Position numbers and translations under genes: made by a program
Source of the DNA: a virus
Virus record (IMG/VR): IMGVR_UViG_3300012013_001028
Location: 1 to 22,572 of that record
Length of the DNA: 22,572 nucleotides
Direction: 5' to 3' (one strand)
In this document: positions 1 to 10,271 of the stretch, one piece after another
Numbering within the stretch: position 1 is the first letter of the stretch
How the letters are laid out: every line of letters begins with the position of its first letter
Notes under the pieces: generated by a model
What the model saw: only the letters and a program-made list of their open reading frames with translations
Database searches by the model: none
Told to the model about the DNA's origin: nothing

Positions 1-59
1 AAGAATTCTGTTGTAATTCTTAACATTTAAATGTCGTTTAGTACTAAAAAACAAAATTT

Positions 60-941
60 ATGATTACTCGTTCAATTCTTGCTGCTAGTGTTGCTGCTGC
101 TTCTCTCGCAGCTCCTGCTATGGCACAAGTCACTAACGTGACTCAACTCAAGGATGTGCAACCTACCGATTGGTCTTATCAGGCGCTTTCCAACCTGATT
201 TCACGTTACGGTTGTGTTGCTGGTTATCCCAATGGCACTTTCCAGCCTGGTCAACCCGCCTCCCGTGCTGAGCTTGCTGCTCTCACTAATGCTTGCCTTG
301 ACCGTATTGGTGAATATCAGAGTGCTGCTGATGCTGCTCTCGCTGCTGCTCTTCGTGCTCAATTCTCCAAGGAAATCGCTGCTACTAACACCCGCGTGAG
401 CGCCCTTGAGGTTGCTGCTGCTCAGAAGGCACAAGGCGTTGGTAACTACCTGGGTGTTGGCGTTCTTCTCAATCAGCAAGGCACTGCTGGTAATGGTTTC
501 AGTGCTCAGCGTACTATCTCTGGTGCTACCGTTCAAGCACGTTATGCTGTGAAGAACTTTACCAACCTGAATGCTGTTTCGGTTCGTCCTTATGCTAGCT
601 TCGTAGGTACTCCTGCTGGTCAACTGGGTTCTGGTGGTGGTGCTCTGGTGTCTTATGACTGGAGCATCTCTCGTGCCAAGTCTGGTGTGAGCCGTGCTAA
701 CGTTTACACTGGCGTTGGTTACCAGATCCCCTTCGTGAACAACACTGCTGCTAACTATCAGTCTGCCGTTGGTAATCGTGGTCAATTCGTGCTTGCCGTT
801 GGCGTTGAAGGTCGTATCACCAACTCACTGGTTGGTTTTGCTGATCTGAAGTTCCCCACCACCAATGCTGCTAATAGCTACGGTGCTACCAACGGAACTT
901 ATTCGCCTGTGTTCACCACTGGACTTGGTTTCAAGTTCTGA
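60..941 (+). CDS. SLH-domain outer-membrane barrel (porin-like) protein
   Basis: This 293-residue protein starts with a Sec-type signal peptide (basic start, alanine-rich core, likely cut after AMA at residues 20-22). One S-layer-homology domain follows (about 28-82; DVQPTDWSYQAL, GYPNGTFQPGQPASRAE). A short Ala-rich helix comes next (about 86-122), then a Gly/Asn/Thr-rich beta region that ends in GLGFKF. A terminal Phe is the usual signal for beta-barrel insertion by BamA. The layout matches cyanobacterial SLH porins such as SomA, but those are roughly 500 residues, so this is a shortened version. C-ending codons are much commoner here than in neighbouring genes, which suggests capture from a host. 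Role is inferred: an outer-membrane or virion surface protein. No clear Shine-Dalgarno site precedes the start. Confidence 0.8.
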   Translation: MITRSILAASVAAASLAAPAMAQVTNVTQLKDVQPTDWSYQALSNLISRYGCVAGYPNGTFQPGQPASRAELAALTNACLDRIGEYQSAADAALAAALRAQFSKEIAATNTRVSALEVAAAQKAQGVGNYLGVGVLLNQQGTAGNGFSAQRTISGATVQARYAVKNFTNLNAVSVRPYASFVGTPAGQLGSGGGALVSYDWSISRAKSGVSRANVYTGVGYQIPFVNNTAANYQSAVGNRGQFVLAVGVEGRITNSLVGFADLKFPTTNAANSYGATNGTYSPVFTTGLGFKF

Positions 942-963: not shown

Positions 964-991
964 AAACCACCCCTTTCTGGGGTGGTTTTTT
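964..991 (+). terminator. Rho-independent terminator after the SLH gene
   Basis: A 10-bp perfect stem (AAACCACCCC / GGGGTGGTTT) with a TTTCT loop is followed by a T run. It lies just after the SLH gene and before the next promoter. Confidence 0.9.
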
Positions 992-1068: not shown

Positions 1069-1278
1069 ATGACCGTAACAACTAATGAACGTGGTCAGCA
1101 AAATATGTTTGCGAAAGAACCACAAATGTACATCTCCCAATCCGATGCAGAGCGTTATGCACTTCAAACACATGCTGAACGTGCCGAACTTGCAAATTCA
1201 CGCTGGGCAATGGTCGGCATTATTGCTGGTGCTATTTCTTATGCTCTCACTGGCAAACTCTTCTTCGGAATCTTCTGA
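1069..1278 (+). CDS. hli: High-light-inducible protein (Hli), 69 aa
   Basis: The C-terminal half carries the single chlorophyll a/b-binding-type helix of Hli proteins: AERAELANSRWAMVG followed by a hydrophobic stretch IIAGAISYALTG and FFGIF. Glu, Asn and Arg of the ExxNxRxAMxG motif are visible. Family knowledge: Hlis bind chlorophyll and carotenoid in thylakoids and protect photosystems; cyanophages commonly carry them. The ATG at 1069 was chosen because it follows the promoter at 1013-1041; a longer in-frame reading from 961 would start inside the terminator. An internal ATG at 1108 is a possible alternative. The stop overlaps the next start (TGATG). Confidence 0.88.
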   Translation: MTVTTNERGQQNMFAKEPQMYISQSDAERYALQTHAERAELANSRWAMVGIIAGAISYALTGKLFFGIF

Positions 1279-1364
1279 TGACTGAACTTATTTGGATAGT
1301 AACCACTGTTGCTTTTTTTGTGACTTTGGGTTATGCTGTGGAGAAACTTGCTGAAACTTATTGA
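1278..1364 (+). CDS. 28-aa single-pass membrane peptide
   Basis: ATG at 1278 overlaps the hli stop by one base. The product MTELIWIVTTVAFFVTLGYA plus VEKLAETY has one hydrophobic helix and a charged C-terminus. It is coupled on both sides by TGATG junctions, so translation is likely. Its size and topology are like small photosystem or cytochrome b6f subunits, but I do not recognise it as any of them. Its place between two hli genes makes a thylakoid role a reasonable guess only. Confidence 0.6.
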   Translation: MTELIWIVTTVAFFVTLGYAVEKLAETY

Positions 1365-1561
1365 TGCTTGGAAATCTTGAACCTGAAGAATCTGTGATGT
1401 CTAGAGGTGGTTGGTTGGGAAAACTCTCAATTGCTATCCAAGAACTTCAAGAATCTGGTGCTTGGGATATAGATGATGAACTTAAAGTTTGTATCGCAGG
1501 CACTTTACCTAAAGATAAATTTATTGTAATTCAAAATACTACTAAGAGGACACAAAAATGA
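1364..1561 (+). CDS. Hypothetical protein, 65 aa, in the hli operon
   Basis: The ATG at 1364 overlaps the previous stop (TGATG), and the stop at 1559-1561 overlaps the next start (ATGA). The product is soluble, begins MLGNLEPEESVMSRGGWLGK, has an amphipathic segment KLSIAIQELQESGAWDIDDELKV, and ends in a basic tail (KRTQK). No domain is recognised. Tight coupling in a photoprotection operon suggests a related job, but nothing in the sequence shows it. Confidence 0.65.
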   Translation: MLGNLEPEESVMSRGGWLGKLSIAIQELQESGAWDIDDELKVCIAGTLPKDKFIVIQNTTKRTQK

Positions 1562-1677
1562 AATTCGGATGGACTGAACAAAACGAAAAACTAAATGGAA
1601 GACTGGCAATGTTAGGATTTGTTATTGCAGTTGGCACTTATCTCACAACTGGTCAGGTAGTGCCAGGAATCTGGTGA
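1558..1677 (+). CDS. hli: High-light-inducible protein (Hli), 39 aa
   Basis: This short reading frame encodes EKLNGRLAMLGFVIAVGTY and TTGQVVPGIW, a near-ideal Hli helix with the ExxNGRxAMxG pigment-binding motif (Glu10, Asn13, Arg15 in MKFGWTEQNEKLNGRLAM). The N-terminus is only about nine residues, typical of the short phage form. The ATGA overlap with the previous gene makes it the last gene of the operon, and a terminator follows at once. It is distinct from the longer Hli at 1069, so this operon has two Hli forms. Confidence 0.92.
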   Translation: MKFGWTEQNEKLNGRLAMLGFVIAVGTYLTTGQVVPGIW

Positions 1678-3410: not shown

Positions 3411-3536
3411 ATCAACAAGTTAAGGAATGTAACAAATCCTTAATGTTGTCCTCTACCTAACCGAGACCTATGGGGAGGTTAAACACAGTCTCTCATATCC
3501 CGCCTGAGGGTGGTGTAGGAATACTGTACTTGTTCA
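3411..3536 (+). promoter_or_regulatory. Structured RNA leader, copy A (psbA-leader-like)
   Basis: Three stems are visible. Stem I: 3413-3417 with 3444-3448 plus 3420-3426 with 3437-3443. Stem II: 3450-3457 with 3472-3478, holding ACCGAGAC (3460-3467) in its loop. GTCTC (3488-3492) can pair with GAGAC (3463-3467) as a pseudoknot. Stem III: 3498-3504 with 3512-3520, with GAGGGT in the loop. The conserved end GGAATACTGTA follows. The psbA leader at 4788-4900 has the same plan with compensatory base changes. The leader lies before a fibre-like gene. Confidence 0.75.
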
Positions 3537-3567: not shown

Positions 3568-4734
3568 ATGTCTCTATCCACTAATACTGTTTATAGACTT
3601 TTTGTAGAAAAACTTGGTGGTGCTAATCCAACTACCTTTGTGGGGGATGAAGGTGAAGTATTTTATAATCCAAATGATGGTGTTCTAAAAATATCAGATG
3701 GTTCTACTCCAACTGGAATAGTTATGAACCCATTAATGCCAGTTGGTTTTTTTACACCACCAGACAATCACTGGTATGTAAATCCAAATAGAACTGATAC
3801 ATACACTTCAACTGGTTCTGTTGCCGCTCCTTATAAAACTGTTGGTGCAGCATTAAGTGCAATTCAAAATGCTCTACAAACTGGAATTGTATCTTTTACT
3901 GATAATGGAGATAGTATTGCAAATCCACAATTTATTATTCTTCAAAGTTCTACAACAGAGAATATAGGACTTACAACAGGACACATTTATATTCAAGGAG
4001 ATACTGCAAGTGGTTCTCAAATGCCCATATGGATTTATGGAACAGTCACCATCAATCCAACAGTAGGAAGTTTATATCAAAACCGATTTGGTATTTCTAA
4101 TCTTGGTATTGTAAATACTGGAAGTAATCCTGGTATTGGGACAACACACTCATTAATAGTTACTGGTTCAGCACCTCTTCGTTGTTATCTAAATGATTGT
4201 AATATCATTGCAGGTTCTACAGGAAACCAGGCAATTTTTATGGATAATAGTGGAACTGGAACTCAATTATATGCAGAAGTTCAACAATTATCCAGAGCAG
4301 GTACATCAGGAACTGATTATGTTGTAAAAGTCAGTAAAGGATATGCATTTTTTAGTAACTGCTCAACTGGTGGTTCAACTGCTACATTTAATGTAAGTGG
4401 AACAGGAACTCTACAAATCCAGTATAGTAAGATTGAAAGTGCTGGAGAAGCATGTGTAAAAGTTGATGGTGGAACTGCCATAGTTACTAGCACATCTCTA
4501 ACAAATACTGTAGGACATGGAGTATCAATGACTGCTGCTGGAACAGTTCTAATATCAATAAACAATTACTTTGATATACTTACATCTCCTGCTAGTAACA
4601 GAGCTATTGCTGGCGTCTCTGGAGTTACTGTTCTTCATTCCAATACAGTAGTTGCTTTTGGAAAAAATGCAAAGTATAGCACTGCAATTGGTGCTGGATA
4701 TATTGGATTAGTAACTGCATTAACTGCAACATAA
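3568..4734 (+). CDS. Beta-helix tail fibre/spike-like structural protein
   Basis: This 388-residue protein has a short N-terminal phage-fibre type module (about 20-55; GDEGEVFYNPNDGVLKISDG), like those that precede receptor-binding parts in many fibres. A long Thr/Ser/Gly/Asn-rich region of short beta repeats follows, with the look of a right-handed parallel beta-helix (for example the turns around residues 165-345). There is no signal peptide and no enzyme motif. It probably forms part of a tail fibre or another surface appendage. It has sigma70 and late promoters and an unusual structured leader upstream. The function is inferred from fold type only. Confidence 0.65.
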   Translation: MSLSTNTVYRLFVEKLGGANPTTFVGDEGEVFYNPNDGVLKISDGSTPTGIVMNPLMPVGFFTPPDNHWYVNPNRTDTYTSTGSVAAPYKTVGAALSAIQNALQTGIVSFTDNGDSIANPQFIILQSSTTENIGLTTGHIYIQGDTASGSQMPIWIYGTVTINPTVGSLYQNRFGISNLGIVNTGSNPGIGTTHSLIVTGSAPLRCYLNDCNIIAGSTGNQAIFMDNSGTGTQLYAEVQQLSRAGTSGTDYVVKVSKGYAFFSNCSTGGSTATFNVSGTGTLQIQYSKIESAGEACVKVDGGTAIVTSTSLTNTVGHGVSMTAAGTVLISINNYFDILTSPASNRAIAGVSGVTVLHSNTVVAFGKNAKYSTAIGAGYIGLVTALTAT

Positions 4735-4787: not shown

Positions 4788-4900
4788 ATCAGCAAGTCAG
4801 GAAATCCTAACATTGCTAAGGTGCTTACCGAGACTTTGCACCATAAATACGTCTCTCATACCCACAATGGAGGGTGTTGTGGGAATACTGTAACTGTTCA
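4788..4900 (+). promoter_or_regulatory. Structured RNA leader of psbA, copy B (possible PhotoRC type)
   Basis: Same plan as the leader at 3411. Stem I is 4791-4795 with 4813-4817, plus an inner AGG/CCT. Stem II is GGTGC (4820-4824) with GCACC (4838-4842), looping out ACCGAGAC. GAGAC (4830-4834) can pair with GTCTC (4851-4855) as a pseudoknot. Stem III is CCCACAA (4861-4867) with TTGTGGG (4877-4883) around a GAGGGT loop. GGAATACTGTA follows. PhotoRC-I and PhotoRC-II are known RNA motifs found before psbA in cyanobacteria and marine phages; whether this belongs to them needs a covariance-model search. Confidence 0.75.
4842..4849 (+). promoter_or_regulatory. Second possible late promoter inside the psbA leader
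   Basis: CATAAATAC directly follows stem II of the leader and is absent from copy A. A transcript from here would keep only stem III. Confidence 0.45.
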
Positions 4901-4934
4901 ATTCCCCTTGAACTCATACTTACCCCTTTAACAA

Positions 4935-6170: not shown

Positions 6171-6174
6171 ATGA
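6130..6174 (+). pseudogene. Truncated start (14 aa) of the gene interrupted by the HNH gene
   Basis: The frame MISSDTPYKLADII stops at TGA, where the HNH start codon overlaps it (ATGA). The downstream 41-aa gene begins MISSDTPYKLAEII, so this is the old 5' end cut off by the insertion. It may still act as a translated leader, since it is coupled to the 21-aa peptide before it and to the HNH gene after it. Confidence 0.75.
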
Positions 6175-6626
6175 TTTTAAATTTTTGTGCTATATGTGGA
6201 ACAAGAGATGATTTGCATCACCACCATTTTGTTGCTAAAAGTCATGGTGGTAGTGACGATGAAACAAATATGCTTACCTTATGTTTTAAGCATCATAATG
6301 AGATTCATAGTAAATCATATAGAAATAATCTTAATCATAGCAAATTAACAAAAGAAGGATTACAAAGAGCAAGAGAACGGGGAGTTGTCCTTGGAAATTC
6401 TAAAAATCTTGTAGAATATAATAAGATCAAAAAACGTAATGCAAAAAAATATGCTTGGGAATACAAAGACCTTATTTTATCTTTTCAGAACAACGGAATG
6501 ACATATCGGCAAATATGTGCTGAAATGCAAAAGTTGGGTATTAAAACTAGTCATGGTTCTAATATCTGGCACCCTGTTCAAATAGGTAGAATATTGAAAA
6601 GAATTAAAAATGGTACTATTATATGA
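6171..6626 (+). CDS. HNH homing-type endonuclease with recombinase-like DNA-binding tail
   Basis: This 151-residue protein has an N-terminal HNH domain (about 5-47): two Cys pairs (CAICG and a later LCFKHH), the His-rich catalytic start LHHHHFVAKSHGGSDDETN, and HHNEIHS. A basic linker leads to a C-terminal helix-turn-helix-like part (about 105-148; MTYRQICAEMQKLGIKT, then GSNIWHPVQIGRILKRI), resembling the DNA-binding domain of large serine recombinases. Such free-standing nucleases cut DNA at sites lacking the insertion and spread by repair. The ATGA overlaps at both ends and the flanking 41-bp repeat show how it sits inside another gene without stopping downstream translation. Confidence 0.9.
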   Translation: MILNFCAICGTRDDLHHHHFVAKSHGGSDDETNMLTLCFKHHNEIHSKSYRNNLNHSKLTKEGLQRARERGVVLGNSKNLVEYNKIKKRNAKKYAWEYKDLILSFQNNGMTYRQICAEMQKLGIKTSHGSNIWHPVQIGRILKRIKNGTII

Positions 6627-8157: not shown

Positions 8158-8625
8158 ATGTATTACACTTATGCATATTTGCGTGAGGATAGAACACCTT
8201 ATTATATTGGTAAAGGTGAAGGTAATAGAGCATACAAATCACATAAAAGAAAAAATGGGCAGGAATTAAAACCAAAAAACAAAAATCAAATCATTATTCT
8301 TAAAAAATTTAAAAGTGAAAAAGAAGCATATATTCACGAAGAATATATGATATCAATTTTTAAAAGAAAATGTGATAGAGGCATTCTTGTAAATATATCT
8401 TTAGGTGGAGAACAACCAAATTCAAAATACAAAACTTTGGAAGAAAAGGTAGAAGCAAGAAGAATAAGATCTAGAATAAATGCTAAAAAATACAGGGAAA
8501 ATGAAACGAATGAACAAAAAGAAAAAAGAAATAAAAAAAGAAGAAAAAAATATTCATTGAACAAAGAAATTATAAATCAAAAAAGAAGAGAAATTTACAA
8601 ACTAAATAAACAGATTGACGAATAA
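8158..8625 (+). CDS. GIY-YIG homing-type endonuclease
   Basis: This 155-residue protein begins with a GIY-YIG nuclease domain (about 1-85). TYAYLREDRTPYYIGKG is the two-strand motif (YAY, YYIG), then Arg24 in NRAYKSH and a Glu in HEEYMISIF, the usual catalytic pair. The remainder (about 95-155) is very Lys/Arg/Asn-rich with repeated KxRRxxY-like units, probably DNA-binding helices. The gene is strongly AT-rich, unlike its neighbours, and has its own terminator and late promoter upstream: a self-contained mobile cassette. It lies between a membrane-protein gene and the orphan tail of what seems the same gene. Confidence 0.9.
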   Translation: MYYTYAYLREDRTPYYIGKGEGNRAYKSHKRKNGQELKPKNKNQIIILKKFKSEKEAYIHEEYMISIFKRKCDRGILVNISLGGEQPNSKYKTLEEKVEARRIRSRINAKKYRENETNEQKEKRNKKRRKKYSLNKEIINQKRREIYKLNKQIDE

Positions 8626-10142: not shown

Positions 10143-10240
10143 ACGTTCATTCCCAACGGGAACGGAAGTAAGCCGACTCGGAACGGATCGTTCATTCTCT
10201 ATTCGCAAATAGAGAACGCAAAAGCCGACTGAAGGAACGC
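10143..10240 (+). promoter_or_regulatory. Glutamine riboswitch (glnA / Downstream-peptide type), tandem-like
   Basis: Two similar units follow each other. Unit 1 is 10144-10185: CGTTCATTCCC, hairpin, ACGGAAGTAAG, CCGACT, GGAACG. Unit 2 is 10189-10240: CGTTCATTCTC, hairpin, AACGCAAAAGCCGACT, GAAGGAACGC. The CGTTC/GGAACG closing stem, ACGGAAGTA and GAAGGAACGC are hallmarks of glutamine-binding glnA and Downstream-peptide RNAs known from cyanobacteria and marine phages. The ribosome-binding site at 10259-10264 can pair with CTCTTT at 10240-10245, a possible control point (inference). Confidence 0.82.
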
Positions 10241-10271
10241 TCTTTAACTTAAACAACTAAGGAGAACCCTA

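Follow-up and report, generated by a model that had tools for sequence, protein, structure and literature searches.

Relatives in phages and bacteria

Some phages place a barrel protein of their own in the host outer membrane, as known for Lom of phage lambda and for the Lc porin of phage PA-2, which replaces the host porins. Lom and the PA-2 porin lack an SLH stalk, and they come from lysogenic phages, not from lytic cyanophages. Closer relatives of the protein described here are p168 of cyanophage S-PM2 ('putative S-layer protein', CAF34233.1; 72% identity over 90% of the protein) and SCREM1_199 of S-CREM1 ('iron uptake porin'; 74% identity over 100% of the protein), both members of the same family. 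The SLH protein of S-PM2 was in print by 2010 with a guessed protective role, and its gene was reported to be transcribed early and abundantly (PMC2984593). The two annotations do not reveal an eight-stranded barrel, and the combination of one SLH domain with an outer-membrane protein (OMP) barrel argues against a surface-lattice role as in S-layer proteins.

The cyanobacterial SLH/OprB porins (por_somb, NF033921; Som, Slr1841/Slr1908) and the long porin of phage S-SRM01 are homologous in SLH domain and stalk, but their OprB barrel has about 350 residues while that of the short phage form has 167. OmpM of Veillonella and other diderm Terrabacteria (8bym, 8bys, 8bz2) follows the same plan of SLH domain, coiled coil and barrel. 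Its stalk is homologous and its ligand residues are kept in the phage protein; however, OmpM is reported as a 16-stranded trimeric porin (PMC10628300), whereas eight strands are predicted here. Small cyanobacterial OMP_b-brl proteins (PF13505) and a lone OMP of S-CBWM1 have a homologous barrel, but without SLH domain or stalk.

In the open-access literature of one library, we found no description of the chimera, of the long phage family or of an exchange of alleles, and the word 'porin' is absent from the main text of the S-CREM1 and S-SRM01 papers. The S-PM2 gene and its guessed role had already been published; the chimera and the allele swap are new as far as the literature searched is concerned.

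The gene at 60–941 and its product

The analysed stretch of DNA (the window) is a record of 22,572 bases from a T4-like cyanomyovirus with psbA, two hli genes, speD, thyX, phoH, and baseplate and tail genes. An open reading frame at 60–941 on the plus strand starts with ATG and codes for 293 residues with the carboxy terminus TTGLGFKF. Its product is almost certainly a chimera of an SLH-stalk and an unrelated small barrel, and a member of a phage-only family. The features of the gene are:

60–941, plus strand: phage protein with SLH-stalk and predicted eight-stranded outer-membrane barrel (open reading frame, Pfam, relatives, AlphaFold2)
60–125, plus strand: signal-peptide-like segment, residues 1–22 (by eye); the fastest-changing part, dN/dS 0.54
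150–278, plus strand: SLH domain, residues 31–73, with putative ligand residues W38, G55 and R69 (Pfam; residue invariance)
324–431, plus strand: predicted long helix or coiled-coil stalk, residues 89–124 (AlphaFold2 model; OmpM stalk match)
447–935, plus strand: predicted eight-stranded outer-membrane β-barrel, residues 130–292 (AlphaFold2; homology to cyanobacterial OMPs of about 175 residues)

The amino terminus resembles a signal peptide and ends with AMA-Q near residue 22, as read by eye. Residues 31–73 match the Pfam SLH family (PF00395; E = 4.1e-11, 43.1 bits with a cut-off of 20.8), and the PHROGs collection gave a weak match for this frame. AlphaFold2 predicts eight strands in the C-terminal part; the full-length model is of low confidence (pLDDT 57.9), and the barrel modelled alone reached a pLDDT of 70.9 and a pTM of 0.69. 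These results agree with the original prediction, made from the DNA sequence alone, in which the 293 residues comprise a signal peptide, a single SLH domain and a barrel-like end with terminal Phe. The structure prediction which it had proposed supplied the number of strands.

Over its first 120 or so residues, the protein shares homology with the SLH-stalk found in cyanobacterial SLH/OprB porins and in OmpM. The family profile matches the OmpM stalk (PDB 8bz2) over residues 29–114 with E = 1.3e-12, and also whole OmpM1 chains (8bys/8bym). W38, G55 and R69 are invariant in all 119 SLH domains compared (20 short phage, 19 long phage, 22 picocyanobacterial and 58 other cyanobacterial). In OmpM/SpaA, the equivalent Trp, Gly and the Arg of the TRAE motif are reported to bind wall polymer (PMC10628300).

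The barrel is not of the OprB type

The por_somb model gave 94 bits, below its cut-off of 100, with 137 of its 485 positions covered, all N-terminal; the match lies at the amino terminus of the protein, in SLH domain and stalk (E = 8.4e-27). Pfam detected no OprB barrel (PF04966) in the window frame or in the S-PM2 and S-CREM1 proteins. In contrast, the S-SRM01 'porin' matches both the por_somb and the OprB model fully, and together with four long alleles it reaches 280–311 bits on por_somb. The C-terminal 167 residues align by VIA-align with OmpW (Z 15.3, rmsd 3.9, 147 residues aligned), OmpA (Z 14.8, rmsd 2.8, 146 aligned) and NspA (Z 14.6, rmsd 3.1, 142 aligned). PsbO-like barrels, which were among the Foldseek matches, were dismissed as chance β-barrel likeness.

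A barrel profile (A3) found matches in 12 of 386 genomes of the cyanobacterial phylum (E ≤ 0.01), all of them small proteins of about 175 residues; the best match had an E-value of 1.5e-7 (33 bits). Ten aligned proteins of this type are 28–33% identical to the phage barrel. They match OMP_b-brl (PF13505), three of five tested being above its cut-off, while the phage barrel itself has no Pfam match to this family. In the reverse direction, a search of 50,697 phage records with one of these cyanobacterial proteins retrieved only the lone OMP of S-CBWM1 and the barrel of S-PM2 p168.

A widened barrel profile (A4) had no match in the 251 genomes of the host family (that of genome G309, taken as picocyanobacteria by psbA similarity). 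As a control, seven of eight other cyanobacteria were matched; six of these seven had given rows to A4 and one was independent. The family of G009 was dropped as a host family, as it is another lineage with multi-SLH proteins. Short frames of about 170–310 residues among the host matches were considered as possible host chimeras, but all five that were fetched lie at contig ends, and an apparent host protein of 252 residues (L154) is interrupted by stops.

The partial por_somb match, the absence of OprB and the kinship of the barrel to proteins of about 175 residues indicate that an SLH-stalk has been joined to an unrelated small barrel. The idea of a shortened host-type porin has to be given up: the protein scores below the por_somb cut-off, is without OprB, carries another barrel, and its SLH part falls in a phage-only clade (see below). 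Short it is, but not by shortening, since the barrel is a different one.

A phage-only family under purifying selection

All 149 candidate stretches from viral contigs encode a relative, which goes far beyond a chance result. Eighty of these were kept, giving 82 loci together with S-PM2 and S-CREM1. Every one of the 82 has an intact frame ending in KF, mostly of 279–294 residues; six longer lengths are due to an upstream in-frame ATG. Identity to the window protein is 71–94% among 40 representatives. Pooled dN/dS values from 57 distinct sequences are 0.10 for the SLH domain, 0.15 for the stalk, 0.16 for the barrel and 0.21 for the predicted outer loops, the loop boundaries being our reading of the model. 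These predicted loops are conserved, with a mean identity of 76%. The short chimera is under purifying selection and stable in length.

A tree of the SLH-stalk was computed from 86 rows and 101 columns, with 25 of the 58 other cyanobacterial rows; many of its inner forks are not resolved. The 20 short phage rows make up one side of a branch with 100/100 support. The 19 rows of the long phage form are grouped next to the picocyanobacterial hosts (84/82), a position in which the short form is not found. Mean identity of the SLH-stalk to picocyanobacterial hosts is 55% for the short form versus 79% for the long phage porins. A recent transfer of the short form from a host is rejected by this difference and by the 100/100 split. 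Among the matches listed for the family profile in the 251 host-family genomes, 198 genomes are matched via the SLH-stalk of long porins, and none of these matches extends past residue 215 of 293. The 'S-layer domain protein' T4-GC425 of other cyanophages (PMC3037559) was not matched by the window protein at E ≤ 0.01.

The short chimera forms an old clade confined to phages. The comparison with host porins that the original prediction had suggested places the SLH part in one phage-only clade (100/100), well apart from them. An old phage-only family located in the virion had been named as the finding that would speak against that prediction; the family is indeed old and phage-only, and for a virion location no support was found.

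Two alleles at shared slots

With the S-SRM01 porin as query, 506 relatives were found in viral contigs. Full-length porins of the SLH/OprB type are therefore common among these phages; examples are located at L004:8908–10368 and in L321–L400. They are much commoner in viral contigs than among isolates, where S-SRM01 is the only one (two of 50,697 phage records).

Gene neighbourhoods were compared between the 82 short loci and 53 long loci of the 81 available (including S-SRM01). Among recognised reference genes, hli is the closest one downstream in 41 of the short and 24 of the long loci, and Dps in 23 and 15, respectively. Upstream, glycosyltransferase 25 is nearest in 16/82 short and 21/53 long loci. 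The right flank in the window consists of:

1069–1278, plus strand: gene for a high-light-inducible protein (hli), the usual right neighbour of the slot
1361–1561, plus strand: open reading frame of 66 residues (S-PM2 p171 type), conserved right flank
1558–1677, plus strand: second hli gene, conserved right flank

The order hli–p171–hli is also found downstream of p168 in S-PM2; in S-CREM1 the gene occupies a different slot, between MoxR/cobS and gp45.

Two viral contigs (L005 and L030) encode a protein identical to that of the window and reveal the region upstream of it. Directly upstream of the slot, L005 has a surface-sugar cluster (L005:75–4904) with genes for a carbamoyltransferase C-terminus, NAD synthase, a methyltransferase, UDP-glucose/GDP-mannose dehydrogenase and glycosyltransferase 25.

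The closest pair of alleles is formed by the long one of L323 and the short one of L005, a contig from the window's phage or from a phage whose protein is identical. Their 600-base flanks are 85% identical over 584 bases upstream and 94.6% over 595 bases downstream. Promoter, 5' untranslated region (UTR) with inverted repeat, start codon, last codons, stop codon and terminator align, while the coding sequences differ; the SLH-stalk is all that the proteins have in common (47% identity over 110 residues). Six viral contigs contain a pattern derived from this 5' UTR, and the short and the long allele are represented by three of them each. Both flanks pair for 38 short loci and 21 of the 53 long loci (21 and 17 distinct proteins, respectively), in four slot classes; 78 short loci had enough upstream and 76 enough downstream sequence for this comparison. 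Each large record contains one SLH protein and never both (14 of 14 with the short allele and 14 of 14 with the long one), many of these records being fragments. The two alleles are exchanged at shared slots, and the long allele of the S-SRM01 type uses the same slots and regulatory DNA as the short form. The two may do different jobs.

We tentatively propose that in cyanomyoviruses one early promoter–UTR–terminator unit may take up either a phage-only SLH tether with eight strands or a host-derived SLH/OprB porin, by which the virus would rebuild both the link between membrane and wall and the cell surface.

Regulatory regions and codon usage

The regulatory elements around the gene in the window are:

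1–23, plus strand: inverted repeat of the 5' UTR, its left arm cut by the start of the window; kept with both alleles of the slot
964–991, plus strand: terminator-like hairpin directly 3' of the gene, a perfect 10 bp stem running into T residues
1013–1041, plus strand: sigma-70-type promoter of the following hli gene, 12 of 12 positions (consensus scan)

The hairpin at 964–991 is absent from the listing of the consensus scan. In L005 the promoter of the slot is TTGACA-17-TATACT at 4901–4929, about 70 bases 5' of the ATG. A promoter with at least 10 of 12 positions lies within 150 nt in 27 of 55 distinct upstream regions; S-PM2 has no consensus promoter in this range (8/12). On average, a fraction of 0.39 of shuffled sequences did as well, and hence about half of the upstream regions are without a convincing promoter. 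Perfect hairpins of at least 8 bp precede the gene in 11 of 55 regions, where 0.8 were expected.

The gene had been described as more C-rich in codon use than its neighbours. Its third-position C (0.26) is indeed above that of the 20 other window frames examined (0.05–0.25) but not unique, with 0.23 in psbA and 0.25 in one hli gene. Third-position A is 0.08 versus 0.21–0.53 in the same 20 frames. Three host porins have a third-position C of 0.52–0.64, for which reason the C-rich codons seem to resemble those of a highly expressed phage gene (cf. S-PM2 gp23) and not those of a recent host import. The fraction of C-ending codons for Phe, Tyr, Asn, His and Asp is 0.51 in S-PM2 p168, 0.66 in gp23, 0.53 in gp19 and 0.19–0.42 in 11 other S-PM2 genes. 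This codon usage fits high expression.

Proposed function

Two points of the original interpretation are supported: the phage gene codes for an SLH protein with a barrel of the outer-membrane type, and its product probably acts at the surface of the host. What falls away is the shortened host-type porin. By analogy with OmpM and OmpA, we favour, with a probability of roughly 45%, a main function as tether between outer membrane and cell wall. The short protein is predicted to be exported; its SLH domain and coiled-coil stalk would grip the peptidoglycan and its eight-stranded barrel would sit in the outer membrane. The phage would make this tether in quantity early, once host proteins are no longer replaced, and the envelope might thus be kept intact until lysis. 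The tether would also become a new abundant surface protein. In related phages, this purpose could be served by a full-length SLH/OprB porin expressed from the same cassette. Since no open pore is to be expected from a barrel of eight strands, the common feature of the alleles would be stalk plus membrane anchor; sharing these and not a pore, they favour an early-made link between outer membrane and wall. In Synechocystis, loss of an SLH/OprB protein is reported to raise vesiculation (PMC8707739).

The main rival, possible but somewhat doubtful, is superinfection exclusion or defence against grazing: the barrel would mask or displace host porins or glycans used by other phages, and the choice of short or long allele would set which competitors are excluded. 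The slot often adjoins surface-sugar genes, neighbours that would also fit a remodelling of the surface. The exchange of a whole barrel at one slot also speaks for exclusion, as do the early, abundant transcription reported for the S-PM2 gene and the protective role proposed there (PMC2984593). However, with a mean identity of 76% and a dN/dS of 0.21, the predicted outer loops show a conservation that is unlike an arms-race surface. Moreover, we know of no receptor of these phages that is an SLH porin. Uptake of nutrients or iron, by which the phage would maintain import across the outer membrane as the 'iron uptake porin' annotations imply, is less likely for the short form and on the whole improbable: the short allele has no OprB barrel, and eight-stranded barrels are normally without a diffusion pore. 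It draws on the long allele, a full por_somb porin with 280–311 bits, on the vicinity of Dps (nearest downstream in 23/82 short and 15/53 long loci) and on Slr1908 of the same type, which reportedly matters for iron uptake (PMC8707739).

Still less credible is a helper of lysis, an abundant SLH decoy that displaces host porins from the wall by competition, makes the outer membrane looser and facilitates the burst. Genes for a C39 peptidase and a lysozyme are indeed nearby in the window and in many relatives, but the barrel would itself tether, and the S-PM2 gene was reported as early, not late (PMC2984593). A virion protein or released decoy is very improbable in view of signal peptide and OMP barrel; for S-CREM1 virions, the main text gives 14 proteins (four structural, nine unknown, one without match) and mentions no porin (PMC9964418). 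A copy of a host SLH/OprB porin that has been truncated and is decaying would account for the SLH-stalk as the only shared part. It is already refuted by a non-OprB barrel with relatives of its own, by a length stable in 82 loci with dN/dS of 0.10–0.21, and by the single old clade.

Discussion of the auxiliary genes of cyanophages has centred mainly on photosynthesis and metabolism. The family described here directs attention to a takeover of the host outer membrane by a lytic phage, on the scale of hundreds of viral contigs, and suggests that these viruses achieve it with interchangeable parts. It also corrects two labels given to the short form, 'S-layer protein' and 'iron uptake porin'. As S-PM2 and its host are culturable, the role of phage-made outer-membrane proteins in lytic infection is directly testable, and the two alleles that occur naturally at one slot provide internal controls.

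Other features of the window

The genes for the C39-like peptidase and the lysozyme (1740–2902) overlap by four bases. PHROG 3617 (405 positions) matches the peptidase with positions 1–235 and the lysozyme with 245–405; as this single PHROG spans both, the two seem to be fused in other phages. PhotoRC-II RNA elements are present at 3440–3532 and 4808–4896. One precedes psbA as usual; the second is directly in front of an open reading frame of 388 residues (3568–4734) which is not a known photosynthesis gene and had no Pfam family at E 0.001. Directly after psbA there is an HNH endonuclease gene (6171–6626). A second frame (8158–8625) has a motif which, as read by eye, is GIY-YIG-like; this frame had no Pfam match. 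A glutamine riboswitch aptamer (Rfam RF01739; 37.2 bits with a cut-off of 35) is located at 10187–10243, directly after speD.
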